A stretch of 27,068 nt of DNA from contig JAILMZ010000148.1 in NCBI GenBank assembly GCA_024692105.1, positions 1 to 27,068 of the forward strand. Direction: 5' to 3'. A program made the position numbers and the translations under genes. Origin of the DNA: Saccharofermentans sp. Its GTDB lineage: Bacteria > Bacillota_A > Clostridia > Saccharofermentanales > Saccharofermentanaceae. Within the stretch, counting starts at the first letter, position 1; each line of letters opens with the position of its first letter. The notes beneath the pieces are model-generated. The model was not told where the DNA came from, searched no databases, and worked only from the letters and a program-made list of their open reading frames with translations. Shown here piece by piece: positions 5,485 to 24,839 of the stretch.

Positions 5485-5507
5485 TTGTACTCTTCCTTAA
5501 GTTCAGG

Positions 5508-5532
5508 GGGCGGCTTTCGGGCCGCCCTTTTT
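5508..5532 (+). terminator. intrinsic terminator of the ABC exporter operon
   Basis: GGGCGGC (5508-5514) pairs with GCCGCCC (5521-5527) around a 6-nt loop, followed by five T. It lies 24 bp after the permease stop. Confidence 0.92.
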
Positions 5533-5597
5533 GCTGCAACAGTTTGGCGGTTTGAACTGTATTAATAGCAGAACACAACATGCAAAGGGGTGTAGTT

Positions 5598-6191
5598 ATG
5601 GTCAAGTTCAGGAAAGCGTTAAGCATAGTACTCGCGGCAGTTTTGGCATTGGGGCTTTGCGCCGGATGCAGTGATGTGCGGAGCAGGAAAAGCAAGAAAA
5701 ACAGCGACGGCATCGTCCCCAAATTTGCCTGGGTGTACTCATGCAACCCCGACAACATGCTCGGCTTTGAAGGGTACTACTGCAAGGGCGATACACTGTA
5801 CATTGTCTTTGACAAGGACTACATAAAAGATTCCAATGTTCCGTCCGCGCTTAGCTATATTGCGGGCGATAAAGAGTGGCCGGAATTCTACGATATCTAT
5901 GTCTATAGTGACGATGATTACTTTTGGAAGGAGCCGCAAGACATTTCTTTGGAAGGCACGGACGGCAAGCTCATCATAAGCTTTGAACTCGATGATGTCA
6001 GACCAAACGAGATCACCGAGTTATGTATAGAATACGATTCCTATATATACACCGAAGACGGTACTCTAAGAGTTAATGTGTGGGGCGGCGAATGGAGCTG
6101 CGAATACACTCAGGCATATGACGCAGGTGACGATGAGTGGGGCGAGATCGAAGCAGAAGAAACTTTCTGGGAGTTTGACGATTGTTGTTGA
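5598..6191 (+). CDS. small secreted lipoprotein, function unknown
   Basis: A 197-residue protein with a lipoprotein signal: MVKFRK, hydrophobic residues 7-20, then GLCAGC with the lipidated Cys probably at position 24. Residue -3 of the lipobox is Cys rather than the common Leu. The mature part is acidic and rich in Tyr, Asp and Trp, with a probable beta-sheet fold and a short basic linker (RSRKSKKN) right after the anchor. The start at 5598 is set by AAGGGG at 5585-5590; an in-frame ATG at 5580 lies before that site. It is monocistronic: the exporter terminator lies upstream, and the palindromic array begins 11 bp after the stop and may end its transcript. No family recognised; an extracellular binding or stress role is a guess. 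Confidence 0.82.
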   Translation: MVKFRKALSIVLAAVLALGLCAGCSDVRSRKSKKNSDGIVPKFAWVYSCNPDNMLGFEGYYCKGDTLYIVFDKDYIKDSNVPSALSYIAGDKEWPEFYDIYVYSDDDYFWKEPQDISLEGTDGKLIISFELDDVRPNEITELCIEYDSYIYTEDGTLRVNVWGGEWSCEYTQAYDAGDDEWGEIEAEETFWEFDDCC

Positions 6192-6201
6192 TCCCTTTTT
6201 C

Positions 6202-6368
6202 TACAGCAATTCATACAGCAGTGCTGTACTCTTTGCTGTAGAATTCCTTCGAAAACCTCAAAATGTACAGCAATCCCTACAGAGGTGCTGTACGTTTTGC
6301 TGTAGAAACCCTGCAAAAACGACCAATTGTACAGCAGACCGTACAGCAGTGCTGTATCATCTGCTGTA
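6202..6368. repeat. three 39-bp palindromic units at an exact 64-bp period
   Basis: Units at 6202-6240, 6266-6304 and 6330-6368 start exactly 64 bp apart. Each has four 7-bp half-sites in fixed order: TACAGCA, 5 nt, TACAGCA, one G, TGCTGTA, 5 nt, TGCTGTA. Eleven of twelve half-sites are exact; the second one in the middle unit reads TACAGAG. The 5-nt gaps differ freely between units. The two 25-bp linkers (6241-6265 and 6305-6329) still look alike, matching at roughly two thirds of positions, so the array arose by tandem duplication, after which the palindromes were kept while the rest drifted. The last unit is followed by a short T run and could terminate the lipoprotein transcript. Either a multi-site protein-binding array or repeated nested RNA hairpins would fit. 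I found no further copies in the window. Confidence 0.9.
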
Positions 6369-6411
6369 TTTTTATTGAGAACTCCCCTGCCCTGGCTGAA
6401 AATCCCGGGAA

Positions 6412-6444
6412 TTGTTCAGAGACCCTGAACAGTTTACTGAACAA
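6412..6444 (+). promoter_or_regulatory. inverted repeat covering the -35 region of the GGDEF-EAL gene
   Basis: TTGTTCAG (6412-6419) and its reverse complement CTGAACAA (6437-6444) form a perfect 8-bp inverted repeat. A third half-site CTGAAC (6425-6430) lies between them. The array sits just upstream of the -10 at 6458-6463, so it should control that promoter. Its half-site differs from that of the 64-bp array. Confidence 0.6.
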
Positions 6445-6457
6445 ACCGCATTGATAG

Positions 6458-6463
6458 TATAAT
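6458..6463 (+). promoter_or_regulatory. -10 element for the degenerate GGDEF-EAL gene
   Basis: Perfect TATAAT 30 bp before the ATG at 6494. At the proper distance upstream there is no good -35 box, only the TGAAC half-sites, which suggests an activator-dependent or regulated promoter. Confidence 0.6.
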
Positions 6464-6493
6464 ATCAGCATGTAACCGGGCCGGAGGGGCAGT

Positions 6494-8029
6494 ATGTTTA
6501 TCAACAGACTCAATCAGTTATACAAGCCTGCAAGACTTCTGTACTATGTTGATGCGGACGATGCTGCCGTAAAGGATTTCTACGCCGGCAGGATATGTGA
6601 TGACATCTCTCGAAATGCAAAAGCATACGGCACCTACGACCACCCGGGGCTTTTCTACATTAAGTCTTCAGGGAAAACTGTAATCGGAATAGAATTCCGC
6701 GCGGACGACGAAAACATAGACTACCCGGAAGGCATTGACCATGTTACTTTGGACGGCGCGTTCTTCTATTCGGTGGAGATCGATGACGATATCGATGTCA
6801 GCCTCAAGACCATCAGGGACATGTTCAGGAAGATCGGCGAAGACGACGATGCACACAGGAACTACAGCGACCTGGCATTCGAAAAAGAACCCGAAGTCAT
6901 AAGCATATTCCACAGCGGCAACAAACTGCGCATTCTCTGCAGCATGAAGGTCACAAGCGACAGGGCTCCAGCCGTCATAAATGACGATGCCGAAAGCATA
7001 GACAAGGACTTCCTGTACAAGAAAGCTTTCATCGATCCGATTACAAACCACTACAACTGGAACCACCTTCTCCCCTTCCTCGAGATGCCTATGGATCACG
7101 GGATAAGCGACTATGCGTTCGTTCATTTCGACATCAAGGAGTTCAAGGTCATCAACGAGGTGTACGGCCACATCGCGGCAAACAAGGTCCTCTGCAATGT
7201 CGTCGATGCCATGAACCAATCTGACTTCGTGTATACGAGTGCGAGATGCCACAACGATAATTTCGCGATGATGATAAAGGACATGCCGGAGGACGTGATG
7301 CGTGCGAAGCTCGAGGAGTTTTTCGAGAGTGTGTCGCACATAGAAGACGACCCGAACTACCGCATATACTACAGGTGCGGCGTGGTACCGATGCAGACCG
7401 CGATGCTGTCGTGCAACAGGGTCGCAGATGCCGGCAAGATGGCTCAGGCTTTAGGCACGGACCCCAACAGGACCGAGATCACTTTCTACCGCGACGAGAT
7501 GCAGTACGACAACCAGTGGAGCAACTACCTCAAGGCTTATCTGGATACGGCAATCGCAAACAAAGAGATAACCGTCTATATGCGTGCGCAGACTGACATA
7601 AAGACCGGCAAGGCTGTCGGTGCAGAGACGATGATAAGGTGGAACTTCAAACACAAGACATACCTCTACCCCGGCAAGTTCATCCCCTACCTCGAGCGTG
7701 ACGGTTCCATCGGCAAGATAGAAGATATGGTATTAAGCGAGGTGTGCGCTTTCCTTGCAAGAACGAAGGCTGACCTCCCTGTTACGGTCGGTCTGTCAGT
7801 GTCACGACTCAATAGTGAAATGGTGCGTCATCTGACAAGCATCGCGGATGCGCACGGCATTAGCCGCAGCCTGATAAGTTTTGAACTGACTGCAAGCATG
7901 CCTGTTGAAAACAGCGAACAGCTGGAACTGGTCATAAATGAACTCAAAGCTGCGGGATTTAAGATAGCAGATCCGAACGGAATCTACTCTTACGGGGAGC
8001 CTGTAACCATAGAAGAATTCGAACTGTAA
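6494..8029 (+). CDS. degenerate GGDEF plus truncated EAL protein, probably non-catalytic
   Basis: A 511-residue cytoplasmic protein with a strong GGAGGGG ribosome binding site. Residues 1-165 are an unassigned N-terminal domain. Residues about 173-335 have the GGDEF fold (DIKEFKVINEVYGH), but the active-site loop reads CHNDNF near 252, so cyclase activity is unlikely. Residues about 345-511 match the first two thirds of an EAL domain. The EAL motif is ETM (GAETMIRW near 377), the metal-ligand Asn of the VNLS-like strand is Gly, the TE motif is TA, and DDFG is DPNG near 491. The protein then stops, so the Lys, EGVE and QG motifs are absent. It probably acts as a c-di-GMP or protein receptor, or is decaying. 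Its stop lies 4 bp from the convergent mntP stop. Confidence 0.85.
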   Translation: MFINRLNQLYKPARLLYYVDADDAAVKDFYAGRICDDISRNAKAYGTYDHPGLFYIKSSGKTVIGIEFRADDENIDYPEGIDHVTLDGAFFYSVEIDDDIDVSLKTIRDMFRKIGEDDDAHRNYSDLAFEKEPEVISIFHSGNKLRILCSMKVTSDRAPAVINDDAESIDKDFLYKKAFIDPITNHYNWNHLLPFLEMPMDHGISDYAFVHFDIKEFKVINEVYGHIAANKVLCNVVDAMNQSDFVYTSARCHNDNFAMMIKDMPEDVMRAKLEEFFESVSHIEDDPNYRIYYRCGVVPMQTAMLSCNRVADAGKMAQALGTDPNRTEITFYRDEMQYDNQWSNYLKAYLDTAIANKEITVYMRAQTDIKTGKAVGAETMIRWNFKHKTYLYPGKFIPYLERDGSIGKIEDMVLSEVCAFLARTKADLPVTVGLSVSRLNSEMVRHLTSIADAHGISRSLISFELTASMPVENSEQLELVINELKAAGFKIADPNGIYSYGEPVTIEEFEL

Positions 8030-8703: not shown

Positions 8704-8732
8704 TTGACACGCACACCGGGAGCGTGTATAGT
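8704..8732 (+). promoter_or_regulatory. strong sigma-A promoter of the CPBP-GntR operon
   Basis: TTGACA at 8704-8709, exactly 17 bp, TATAGT at 8727-8732. Transcription would start within the operator palindrome that begins at 8732. Confidence 0.88.
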
Positions 8733-8756
8733 TTGTATTACAAGCACTAATACAAA
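8732..8756 (+). promoter_or_regulatory. GntR (YtrA-type) operator palindrome
   Basis: TTTGTATTA (8732-8740), 7-nt gap, TAATACAAA (8748-8756): a perfect 9-bp inverted repeat that begins at the last base of the -10 box and spans the start site. YtrA-family regulators bind such spaced dyads and repress their own operons. The regulator encoded at 9718 is the obvious ligand; binding here would block transcription start. Confidence 0.8.
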
Positions 8757-8791: not shown

Positions 8792-9721
8792 ATGGATAAG
8801 AAGAAAGTAATCAAATATGTGATCATCACCTTTGTGATCTCATGGACTCTGCAGATCGCAGGTGCACTCTACATGGTAAACAACCCCGGACAGACAGGCA
8901 TTATGGTGTTCCAGGCAAGTATGGCGATCTGTATGTTCGGCCCGTTCGTAGCGGCATGGATCGCGAACGGCACTCTCAAGGGTATGGGCTGGAAGCCGAA
9001 GTTCAAGGGCAATATCGGCTGGCTCGTCTTCGCAGCATATGGAATTATCCCCCTGACGGCGATCGGCGGCGCGCTGTATTACCTGATCTTCCCCGGCATG
9101 TTCGATGCTTCGTTATCTTACGTGATCGCACAGAATGCTGCGGCAGGCGTTGATTTCGAAGCGAAAATGGCAGAGTCTGGAATGACGATGCAGATGTATA
9201 TGATCATCACCATGGCATCTCTCGTCGTCACTCCGTTCATCAACATCATCACGGCGATCGGCGAAGAGACCGGCTGGAGAGGTTTCCTCTACCCTGAGCT
9301 CGGCAAGAGCTTCGGCAAGGCAAAGACTTGGATCATCGGTGGCATCATCTGGGCGGCATTCCACTTCCCCGCAATGCTCATCGGCGGATACGAGTACGGC
9401 AAGGATTACATCGGCGCACCTTGGCTCGGACTCATCGTTTTCACGGTCGTAGTAATCGCTTACGGCGTGCTCGAGGAGATCGTATATGATAAGACAAAGT
9501 GCATCTGGTATCCCGCGCTGCTCCACGGTTCGCTCAACGCAGCACTGACGATACCGCAGATATTCGCAAACGCAGAGAGATCCGACATACTCGATAAGTA
9601 TGCTTTCTGCGGCCCCATCGGAACCGGCCTGCTAGTCTCTGCACCCATCATCGTATGCGCGGTCATCATGGGCGTGGCAGAAGTCCGCAAGGCCGGCAAA
9701 ACAAAGGAGGTACCGGCATGA
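8792..9721 (+). CDS. CPBP-family intramembrane metalloprotease
   Basis: A 309-residue polytopic membrane protein of the CPBP (CAAX protease / bacteriocin processing) family. Motif 1, EETGWRGFLYPEL, is at about residue 157 and supplies the catalytic Glu pair and Arg. Motif 2, FHFP, is near 190 and motif 3, HGSLNA, near 245; their His residues complete the metal site, so the enzyme looks intact. Eight or so hydrophobic helices surround these motifs. The start at 8792 is set by GAGG at 8782-8785; the in-frame ATG at 8774 lies before that site. It is the first gene of an operon whose second gene, the GntR regulator, overlaps its stop by 4 bp. Family members act in bacteriocin maturation or immunity and in processing of membrane proteins; the target here is unknown. 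Confidence 0.9.
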   Translation: MDKKKVIKYVIITFVISWTLQIAGALYMVNNPGQTGIMVFQASMAICMFGPFVAAWIANGTLKGMGWKPKFKGNIGWLVFAAYGIIPLTAIGGALYYLIFPGMFDASLSYVIAQNAAAGVDFEAKMAESGMTMQMYMIITMASLVVTPFINIITAIGEETGWRGFLYPELGKSFGKAKTWIIGGIIWAAFHFPAMLIGGYEYGKDYIGAPWLGLIVFTVVVIAYGVLEEIVYDKTKCIWYPALLHGSLNAALTIPQIFANAERSDILDKYAFCGPIGTGLLVSAPIIVCAVIMGVAEVRKAGKTKEVPA

Positions 9722-10077
9722 TCATAAAGATAGACGAATACTCTGATGTGCCTATCTACATGCAGATCAGAAACCAGATAGTAATGGGCATCTCTTCGGG
9801 CGAACTTAGTCCCGGAGAACAACTCCCGACGGTAAGGGCGCTCGCTCTCGAGATCGGTATCAACACCATGACGGTCAGCAAGACTTACCAGCTCTTAAAA
9901 CAGGAAGGCTACATCATGACTGACCGCAAGAACGGCGCCCGCGTACGCGAGAACATCGCACAGAGCGGAGTGATGTCCGCGGAGAACAAGAACGAACTCC
10001 GGCGCATCGTCTCGGAAGCAAGGCTCTCGGGCGTAGCTAAGGACGAACTTAAGAAACTCATCGACGAGTTTTATTGA
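9718..10077 (+). CDS. GntR-family transcriptional regulator, YtrA subfamily
   Basis: A 119-residue repressor. Residues about 10-75 form the GntR winged helix (PIYMQIRNQIVMGISSGEL, then LPTVRALALEIGINTMTVSK and a wing with DRKNGARV). Only a short helical tail of about 40 residues follows, the hallmark of the YtrA subfamily, which lacks a ligand domain and dimerises through this tail. The start overlaps the CPBP stop (ATGA) and is preceded by AAAGGAGG. The operator is very likely the palindrome at 8732-8756 in its own promoter, giving negative autoregulation. Members usually sit with ABC transporters or membrane proteins and respond to envelope-active compounds; the inducer is unknown. Confidence 0.93.
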   Translation: MIIKIDEYSDVPIYMQIRNQIVMGISSGELSPGEQLPTVRALALEIGINTMTVSKTYQLLKQEGYIMTDRKNGARVRENIAQSGVMSAENKNELRRIVSEARLSGVAKDELKKLIDEFY

Positions 10078-11210: not shown

Positions 11211-11242
11211 GAGGGTTGTAACACTGTTACATTACCGCGGGA

Positions 11243-23248: not shown

Positions 23249-24775
23249 TTAACCCTTTTTCTTCTTGGATTTCTTTGACTTGCCTGAAGGCTTATTCTCA
23301 GCCTTGGGCTCTGCTTTCTTCTCTGCAGGCTTTTCTTCAGGCTTGTCTTCAGACTTTTTCTCAGGCTTTTGGGCAGGCTCTTTCTTTGCTTCTTCAGCCT
23401 TTGCTTCCGCCTTCTCATCAGCCATGATCTCAGTCTTTACGTTTGCCATCGTGGCAGGCTTGTCGTCATCAAGGAGCGACGGCCTGACATATGTATCCAC
23501 CACAACGGGCGCAGGCTTCCTGTAGATAAGATCCTGAACCTTGGTCGTGATCTTCTGTTCGATGACACCCATAATGACGGACAGGATGGTTACCGTTACC
23601 GCATAGATGAAGAGATTGTTCTTAACGTCGCCGACCATGACGAGTGCATCAGGCACCTCGATGAAGCGGCACACCGTGATGGCTGCCAGGTTCATGAGGT
23701 ATGTGTGCAGTGAATACTTTCCGAAGAAACGCGATACAGGATTGTTTACGTGATACTTCATCATGAGGATGAATACGAGTACCGGGAACACAAACAGGAG
23801 CGGTGCCTGCAGGAAGTATGTCTTAATCTTATCGTCAATGGCAGGACCTTTGCCCTCCCACTCAGTCCAGTAACCGAACACTCTCTGGCCGAACTCTGAA
23901 AGCATGAACAGGAGTATGGTTACGACCATGAGAGCATGGAGCTTGAGGATGTACTTCTTCTTGAAGAAAGCGACGATCTGCTTCTCGTAGTTCGCAAAGA
24001 GCAGTCCCGTAAGGAACGCGGGTGCCGAGTTGGCCCACCACTCACCGTTGAACCAGAAGATCTGCTGATCCATCCACCACTGGAAATTGTTCTCGAAATA
24101 AGCATCGTCCATCCACCAGTTATCCGGACCATACCACCACGCGAAATGTCCCACGACGCTTGTGGTGATGCCGAGGCTTATGATGAACAGGCCGATAACG
24201 ATAAAGCATGCCGGACGGTTCTTGATGAACCTGAAGCACAGATAGAACACGAGATAGAGCATGACGAGTATGATCGGGAACCATGCAAATCTGTTCATCA
24301 TGGTGATGCCCAGGAAGTTGGTGACCCACTGCAGAGGCTCGACCGGCCATTTAACAATGAACATCAAAATACCGTATATGATGACATTGACATAGAACGG
24401 GATCACGAGCGCTTTTACGACACGCTTGCCGATGAACCCCTTGAGGTAATCCTTCTTGGTATCGAAGCTCTTGAGGAGTCCGTAGCCTGAGCAGAAGAAG
24501 AAGATAGCTACGAAATACACGCCTGCATTAACGAATGCCGAGAGCACTCCTTCTTCCTGGAAGAACGGTTCCTGTGAGATATGGTGCAGGATGACGCCCA
24601 AAGCGGCAAAGCCCTGCAGTGACTTCATATTCTCAAGACTTGTGAAATCGTCGTTAAACTCGTTCTTCCTGCCGAACTTGTTCGTTGCGCCCCAGATAAA
24701 CAGTGCGATGAAAAGATACGCCACCACCTTATCTGCGACAAACCACCCGGTTATGCCGTTCAGAAACTCAGCCAT
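23249..24775 (-). CDS. acyltransferase-3 family membrane protein with a charged C-terminal tail
   Basis: A 508-residue membrane protein. Residues about 45-75 carry MKSLQGFAALGVILHHIS, the first helix and active-site His of the acyltransferase-3 (OatA/NodX-like) family, which O-acylates sugars or envelope polymers. About ten further helices follow to about residue 420. The last 75 or so residues are low-complexity, rich in Lys, Glu, Pro and Ala (KEPAQKPEKKSEDKPEEK), ending KSKKSKKKKG; such a tail should be disordered and cytoplasmic. I chose the ATG at 24775 (GGGGTG site, MAEFLNGITGW) over a frame that begins at 24817. It lies in a single-gene unit between the permeases and the diguanylate cyclase. 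Confidence 0.88.
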   Translation of the reverse strand: MAEFLNGITGWFVADKVVAYLFIALFIWGATNKFGRKNEFNDDFTSLENMKSLQGFAALGVILHHISQEPFFQEEGVLSAFVNAGVYFVAIFFFCSGYGLLKSFDTKKDYLKGFIGKRVVKALVIPFYVNVIIYGILMFIVKWPVEPLQWVTNFLGITMMNRFAWFPIILVMLYLVFYLCFRFIKNRPACFIVIGLFIISLGITTSVVGHFAWWYGPDNWWMDDAYFENNFQWWMDQQIFWFNGEWWANSAPAFLTGLLFANYEKQIVAFFKKKYILKLHALMVVTILLFMLSEFGQRVFGYWTEWEGKGPAIDDKIKTYFLQAPLLFVFPVLVFILMMKYHVNNPVSRFFGKYSLHTYLMNLAAITVCRFIEVPDALVMVGDVKNNLFIYAVTVTILSVIMGVIEQKITTKVQDLIYRKPAPVVVDTYVRPSLLDDDKPATMANVKTEIMADEKAEAKAEEAKKEPAQKPEKKSEDKPEEKPAEKKAEPKAENKPSGKSKKSKKKKG

Positions 24776-24839
24776 AATTACACCCCATATTTGTAATTTA
24801 TATATACCCGCATACATTCTACCATAATGTACATCTCAC

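Follow-up and report, generated by a model that had tools for sequence, protein, structure and literature searches.

A 64-bp-periodic array of nested heptamers upstream of a truncated GGDEF-EAL gene as a putative cooperative operator in Saccharofermentans

On a Saccharofermentans contig, the gap that separates a predicted lipoprotein gene from a degenerate GGDEF-EAL gene contains an array of three 39-bp units, each with the form TACAGCA-N5-TACAGCA-N-TGCTGTA-N5-TGCTGTA. The array is real and strongly non-random, and it is somewhat probable that a sequence-specific DNA-binding regulator uses it as a cooperative operator. Within the window, by which is meant the whole stretch of 27,068 nucleotides analysed here, unit 1 spans positions 6202-6240 (TACAGCA at 6202 and 6214, TGCTGTA at 6222 and 6234), unit 2 spans 6266-6304 (heptamers at 6266, 6278, 6286 and 6298) and unit 3 spans 6330-6368 (heptamers at 6330, 6342, 6350 and 6362), with no strand assigned to any of them. 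Units 1 and 3 match the 39-bp pattern without mismatch, and the two mismatches of unit 2 both fall within its inner left heptamer. Eleven of the twelve heptamers are exact, the exception being TACAGAG at 6278, and the half-sites begin at offsets 0, 12, 20 and 32 of each unit. The initial annotation had proposed these three starting positions, an exact 64-bp period and eleven exact half-sites with 5-1-5 spacing, all of which are confirmed by pattern searches and repeat finders.

With up to three mismatches allowed, the 39-bp pattern matches the window at 6202, 6266 and 6330, with no further copy in the 27 kb, and it is absent from 100 dinucleotide shuffles. Repeat finders that were given no prior pattern also recover the 64-bp period. 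When the same geometry is scanned with any heptamer, the units score 28, 28 and 26 out of 28. Elsewhere in the window the score reaches at most 24, a value equal to the top maximum among 20 simulated first-order Markov sequences. The possibility of a CRISPR array was considered and rejected, as such arrays combine near-identical repeats with unrelated spacers and here the bases of the 39-bp unit vary and the first two linkers are related.

The heptamers are selectively retained. Between units 1 and 3, all 28 heptamer bases are identical as compared with 3 of the 11 gap-and-centre bases (Fisher p 2.7e-6). The corresponding values are 26 of 28 against 4 of 11 for units 2 and 3 (p 6.1e-4), and 26 of 28 against 7 of 11 for units 1 and 2 (p 0.04). 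The retention of identical recognition words while the DNA between them drifts is expected of an operator array, and it agrees with the earlier description of constant half-sites separated by variable 5-nt gaps. In the information profile built from the 12 oriented half-sites, five positions reach 2.0 bits and two reach 1.59, and the bases directly flanking the heptamer carry 0.45 bits on each side. Further out, values of 1.0-1.2 bits are reached at positions -4 (1.08), +10 (1.18) and +12 (1.0), the latter two being raised in part because the facing heptamer falls there. The linkers, to which no strand is assigned, are each 25 bp in length (linker 1, 6241-6265; linker 2, 6305-6329) and are identical at 17 of 25 positions, a match that was not equalled in any of 20,000 permutations. 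Since the linkers share this much sequence, units 1 and 2 look like a younger duplication. The 25 bases 3' of unit 3 match linkers 1 and 2 at only 9 and 6 positions, respectively, so that the related but drifting linkers noted previously number two and not three.

A feature beyond those of the initial annotation is the ladder formed by the six outer heptamers. Situated at 6202, 6234, 6266, 6298, 6330 and 6362, they follow one another in exact 32-bp steps with alternating orientation, an equal spacing that arises because the linker is 25 bp long. Decayed inner heptamers that would continue the ladder were sought within the linkers (6246-6260 and 6310-6324), where the relevant places match TGCTGTA or TACAGCA at 2, 4, 1 and 3 of 7 positions and are not convincing. 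The 64-bp period corresponds to 6.1 turns at 10.5 bp per turn, in line with the six turns estimated at first. The associated proposal of a shared helical face is suggestive only: for the 12 half-site centres, R is 0.61, 0.76 and 0.84 at 10.4, 10.5 and 10.6 bp per turn, and with three heptamers from the probable promoter added it is 0.73 (10.5) and 0.83 (10.6), both series being drawn from few independent spacings.

The genes on either side of the array are as first described. Upstream, the predicted lipoprotein gene (5580-6191, + strand) encodes a lipobox recognized by eye as LCAGC and belongs to no known family; a word-based search of approximately 5.8 billion proteins returned only two homologues, 94% and 68% identical. 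Its stop codon is followed after 10 nt by the start of the array. Downstream, the degenerate GGDEF-EAL gene (6494-8029, + strand) has HNDNF at the GGDEF site and, in addition to what had been noted, lacks the second half of EAL. HNDNF is present in all 10 aligned sequences, including those of longer relatives. The EAL truncation is present in four of the 10, namely the window's protein and P0003-P0005 (511-515 aa), and not in the six others (598-604 aa). The truncated form recurs in three protein clusters, 98, 81 and 80% identical to the window's protein, and hence is not a fresh pseudogene. The protein is probably inactive as a c-di-GMP enzyme, and the occurrence of its truncated form across three clusters suggests a maintained non-enzymatic role. 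Among named relatives, the top-scoring one comes from Saccharofermentans sp. (63%), and lower-scoring ones carry the names Clostridiales, Lachnospiraceae and also Treponema. A Saccharofermentans-like host within the Clostridia is probable. Repeats of a type III toxin-antitoxin system were rejected, as the downstream gene encodes a GGDEF-EAL protein. A protein search for relatives of an open reading frame that crosses the array (6263-6451) yielded no candidate.

The same intergenic gap contains a second heptamer set, also new relative to the initial annotation. With the form TGTTCAG-N5-CTGAACA-N5-CTGAACA, it occupies 6413-6443 (starts at 6413, 6425 and 6437; no strand assigned) and uses the 5-bp gaps of the array with another heptamer. 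By eye, a TATAAT at 6458-6463 on the + strand is the probable -10 box of the GGDEF-EAL gene, one that a consensus promoter scan does not list. The place of its -35 box is weak, again by eye, and is overlapped by the last CTGAACA, so the second set would lie over the -35 region of this probable promoter. Exact heptamer triples with spacers of 0-20 were absent from 400 simulated 120-bp sequences. Taken alone, the set is moderate evidence since four comparable triples (three before and one after) are found elsewhere in the window; its equal 5-bp gaps and its position at the promoter add weight. Apart from the array, an intergenic scan for exact heptamer direct repeats with gaps of up to 37 gave CTGAACA-N5 in the present gap, CTTATTT-N3 (position 1241) and further pairs whose gaps are 24-29.

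In the operator reading, each 7-bp word would be read by one protein subunit, and a 39-bp unit would accommodate a pair of facing dimers or a tetramer. The 32-bp ladder and the 64-bp phase would align the units along roughly the same face of the helix and allow adjacent complexes to touch. The gene whose transcription is most likely tuned in this way would be the truncated GGDEF-EAL gene, with a probable -10 box that begins about 90 bp after unit 3. Acting together with the array, another regulator or a paralogue may occupy the CTGAACA set over the weak -35. Protein binding, its cooperativity, the gene controlled and the direction of control are what we infer here. Some points weigh against an operator. 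A genome scan with exact words, which would miss drifted versions, found the 27-bp core in no relative, and further genes with such an operator might be expected. The array also lies upstream of the presumed -35, which is far for a simple repressor, and it begins close behind the lipoprotein stop codon.

That last point leads to an RNA alternative, which is unlikely but is the main rival. In this reading, the 3' untranslated region of the lipoprotein mRNA would contain the units as three stacked hairpins, of which the last would be an intrinsic terminator and the others would serve as stability or protein-binding elements. The initial annotation had left the choice between a binding array and stacked hairpins open, and both have support, with the binding array having more. 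Besides the 10-nt distance from the stop codon, the hairpins draw support from the folding of isolated units: as RNA, units 1, 2 and 3 form nested hairpins of -22.4, -16.4 and -23.7 kcal/mol (z -6.4, -3.4 and -6.3). Directly 3' of unit 3 is TTTTTATT (6369-6376, + strand), so placed that the unit 3 hairpin and this tract could form an intrinsic terminator of the lipoprotein mRNA, and by eye there is no other terminator ahead of the downstream promoter. At the first gap position, each of the three units has a complementary pair (A-T, A-T and G-C), with one double change, and this A-T to G-C exchange is the sole hint of covariation. Together with the nested RNA fold of unit 2 alone, the pairing slightly favours structure.

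The behavior of the complete array is less favorable to RNA. Its lowest-energy fold pairs unit 1 with unit 3 at -76.7 kcal/mol, compared to -70.2 kcal/mol when spans are limited to 50, and unit 2 is out of the nested shape in either fold. With DNA parameters, unit 2 alone also does not adopt the nested fold of units 1 and 3. Unit 2 nevertheless keeps three of its four words, which favours an operator over a fold. The identity of the words argues in the same direction: outer and inner heptamers share one word in 11 of 12 cases, and while a hairpin needs complementarity, a protein needs the word. Identical outer and inner words are not needed for stems and even allow mispairing. Further support for the operator comes from the retention of 26-28 of 28 heptamer bases compared with the 3 and 4 of 11 gap bases that units 1 and 2 share with unit 3, from the placement of the outer heptamers on the 32-bp ladder, and from the second set with its same 5-bp gap over the probable downstream promoter. 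As for the terminator, the stem of unit 3 is of mixed composition before TTTTTATT, whereas three other terminator-like inverted repeats in gaps of the window (at 51, 5508 and 26051) have G+C-rich stems. One of these, GGGCGGC-N6-GCCGCCC-TTTTT at 5508-5532, is an evident G+C-rich terminator upstream of the lipoprotein gene. The sole hit of a consensus terminator scan is the inner stem of unit 1 (one found; shuffle mean 0.8). Unit 3 is absent from it, a silence that says little because the scan also misses the evident terminator at 5508. No Rfam family matches the window at the gathering threshold. Unit 3 may serve as a terminator in addition to binding a protein.

It is improbable that the array is a mobile or amplified palindromic repeat that landed in the gap and was duplicated there. 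REP, BIME and REPIN elements are extragenic imperfect palindromes that are sometimes arrayed and are dispersed in high copy number, and GTAG is a foot tetranucleotide of REP elements. The array is likewise extragenic, palindromic and tandem, its first two linkers are clearly duplicates, and GTAG stands at three of the six unit edges (both edges of unit 1 and the right edge of unit 2). The tetranucleotide is missing from the other three edges, however, and the retention of words amid drift is unlike that of decaying copies. The 27-kb window has no other copy at up to three mismatches. The exact 27-bp core has one match in a collection described as representing 84,980 species by a single genome each, a scan that needs exact words and would miss drifted versions in relatives. 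That match, in a Spirochaetaceae MAG, was rejected as a true copy and is taken for chance: it lies inside a 377-aa MacB/FtsX-like permease ORF, has no full unit at up to three mismatches and is not surrounded by such repeats. The full pattern at up to three mismatches was found in none of 392 genomes from the phylum of this MAG, which serves as a background control only and is not the presumed host group. In a test for reaching a sporulating phylum, Spo0A_C was found in none of the last 16 of 40 relatives drawn. Viral contigs gave no exact match for three patterns; for each of the two flanking proteins, two viral stretches fit the word pattern and none encodes a relative. BLAST searches of plasmids (window 5500-6600) and phages (6190-6490) gave no match, which says little since BLAST is blind to spaced 7-bp words.

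Very improbable is a chromosome-structural site that has no connection with the adjacent genes and serves in partition or in the loading of nucleoid proteins, since the general resemblance to the iterated, phased words of plasmid centromere iterons is set against the lack of a partition family among the scanned ORFs of the window (several of which match nothing), the lack of a plasmid match by BLAST, and the second set with the same spacing over a probable promoter.

Returning to the cooperative operator, several known systems offer partial parallels. OmpR/PhoB-type operators consist of head-to-tail repeats of 6-7 bp that are about 5 bp apart, often lie over the -35 and usually have a period of 10-11 bp. 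The array shares the head-to-tail repeats and the separation; it differs in having two direct-repeat pairs that face each other and a period of 12 bp, the value seen in every listed exact direct pair of TACAGCA, TGCTGTA and CTGAACA, and an operator of this type was rejected. The word of the array is also not of the Fur type, which is A+T-rich, and its outer heptamers at 5-bp gaps are extra to a Fur-like arrangement. In the definition taken from part of PMC7536154, a two-dimer Fur box combines 7-1-7 repeats at an offset of 6 nt. The inner half of the array unit, TACAGCA-G-TGCTGTA, is similarly a 7-1-7 inverted repeat of heptamers, and heptamers starting at 0, 12, 20 and 32 do not show the 6-nt offset of that definition (PMC7536154), which led to the rejection of a two-dimer Fur-type box. 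A precedent for cooperative-operator logic is provided by the mneP promoter of B. subtilis, where, according to the excerpted text of a preprint (PMC11275975), an 84-bp region is bound cooperatively by four dimers of MntR, with one predicted site overlapping the -35 and cooperative activation as the outcome. The parallel with the proposed operator lies in a series of low-affinity dimer sites lined up ahead of a promoter, one of them predicted over the -35; the difference is that the MntR sites are four adjacent 18-bp sites, and the same excerpted text describes no nested four-heptamer unit or 64-bp repeat (PMC11275975).

Cooperative operator arrays are already known, and what is unusual here is the nested geometry of facing direct-repeat pairs on an exact 32/64-bp ladder. 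This arrangement did not surface in literature searches, a thin basis for calling it absent. If real, the operator would point to an uncharacterised regulator for which the 39-bp unit could be used as bait, and it would tie this regulator to a truncated, probably inactive c-di-GMP protein that is kept in three clusters. A more speculative extension, which we doubt will hold, is a modular spacing rule by which paralogous regulators read TACAGCA and CTGAACA on a common 12-bp (7+5) grid. One of them would form a comb or filament on the 32-bp ladder of alternating heptamers upstream of the gene for the probably catalytically dead c-di-GMP protein.

A short GntR-family regulator encoded in the window (9655-10077) was considered as a reader of the array and is thought unlikely, its operon having its own, different palindrome. 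This palindrome, TTTGTATTA-N7-TAATACAAA at 8732-8756, overlaps the end of a TTGACA/TATAGT promoter-like pair recognized by eye (8704-8732), and the genes downstream of it include that of the regulator. By its position, it is perhaps the regulator's own operator. Two further repeats were observed in the window. A 7-1-7 inverted repeat, TGTAACA-N-TGTTACA, occupies 11217-11231 in a 32-bp gap between two convergent ORFs and is perhaps a terminator. Within an acyltransferase gene (23249-24817, - strand), positions 23318-23386 contain 5.7 copies of the 12-bp tandem repeat CTTTTCTTCAGG.
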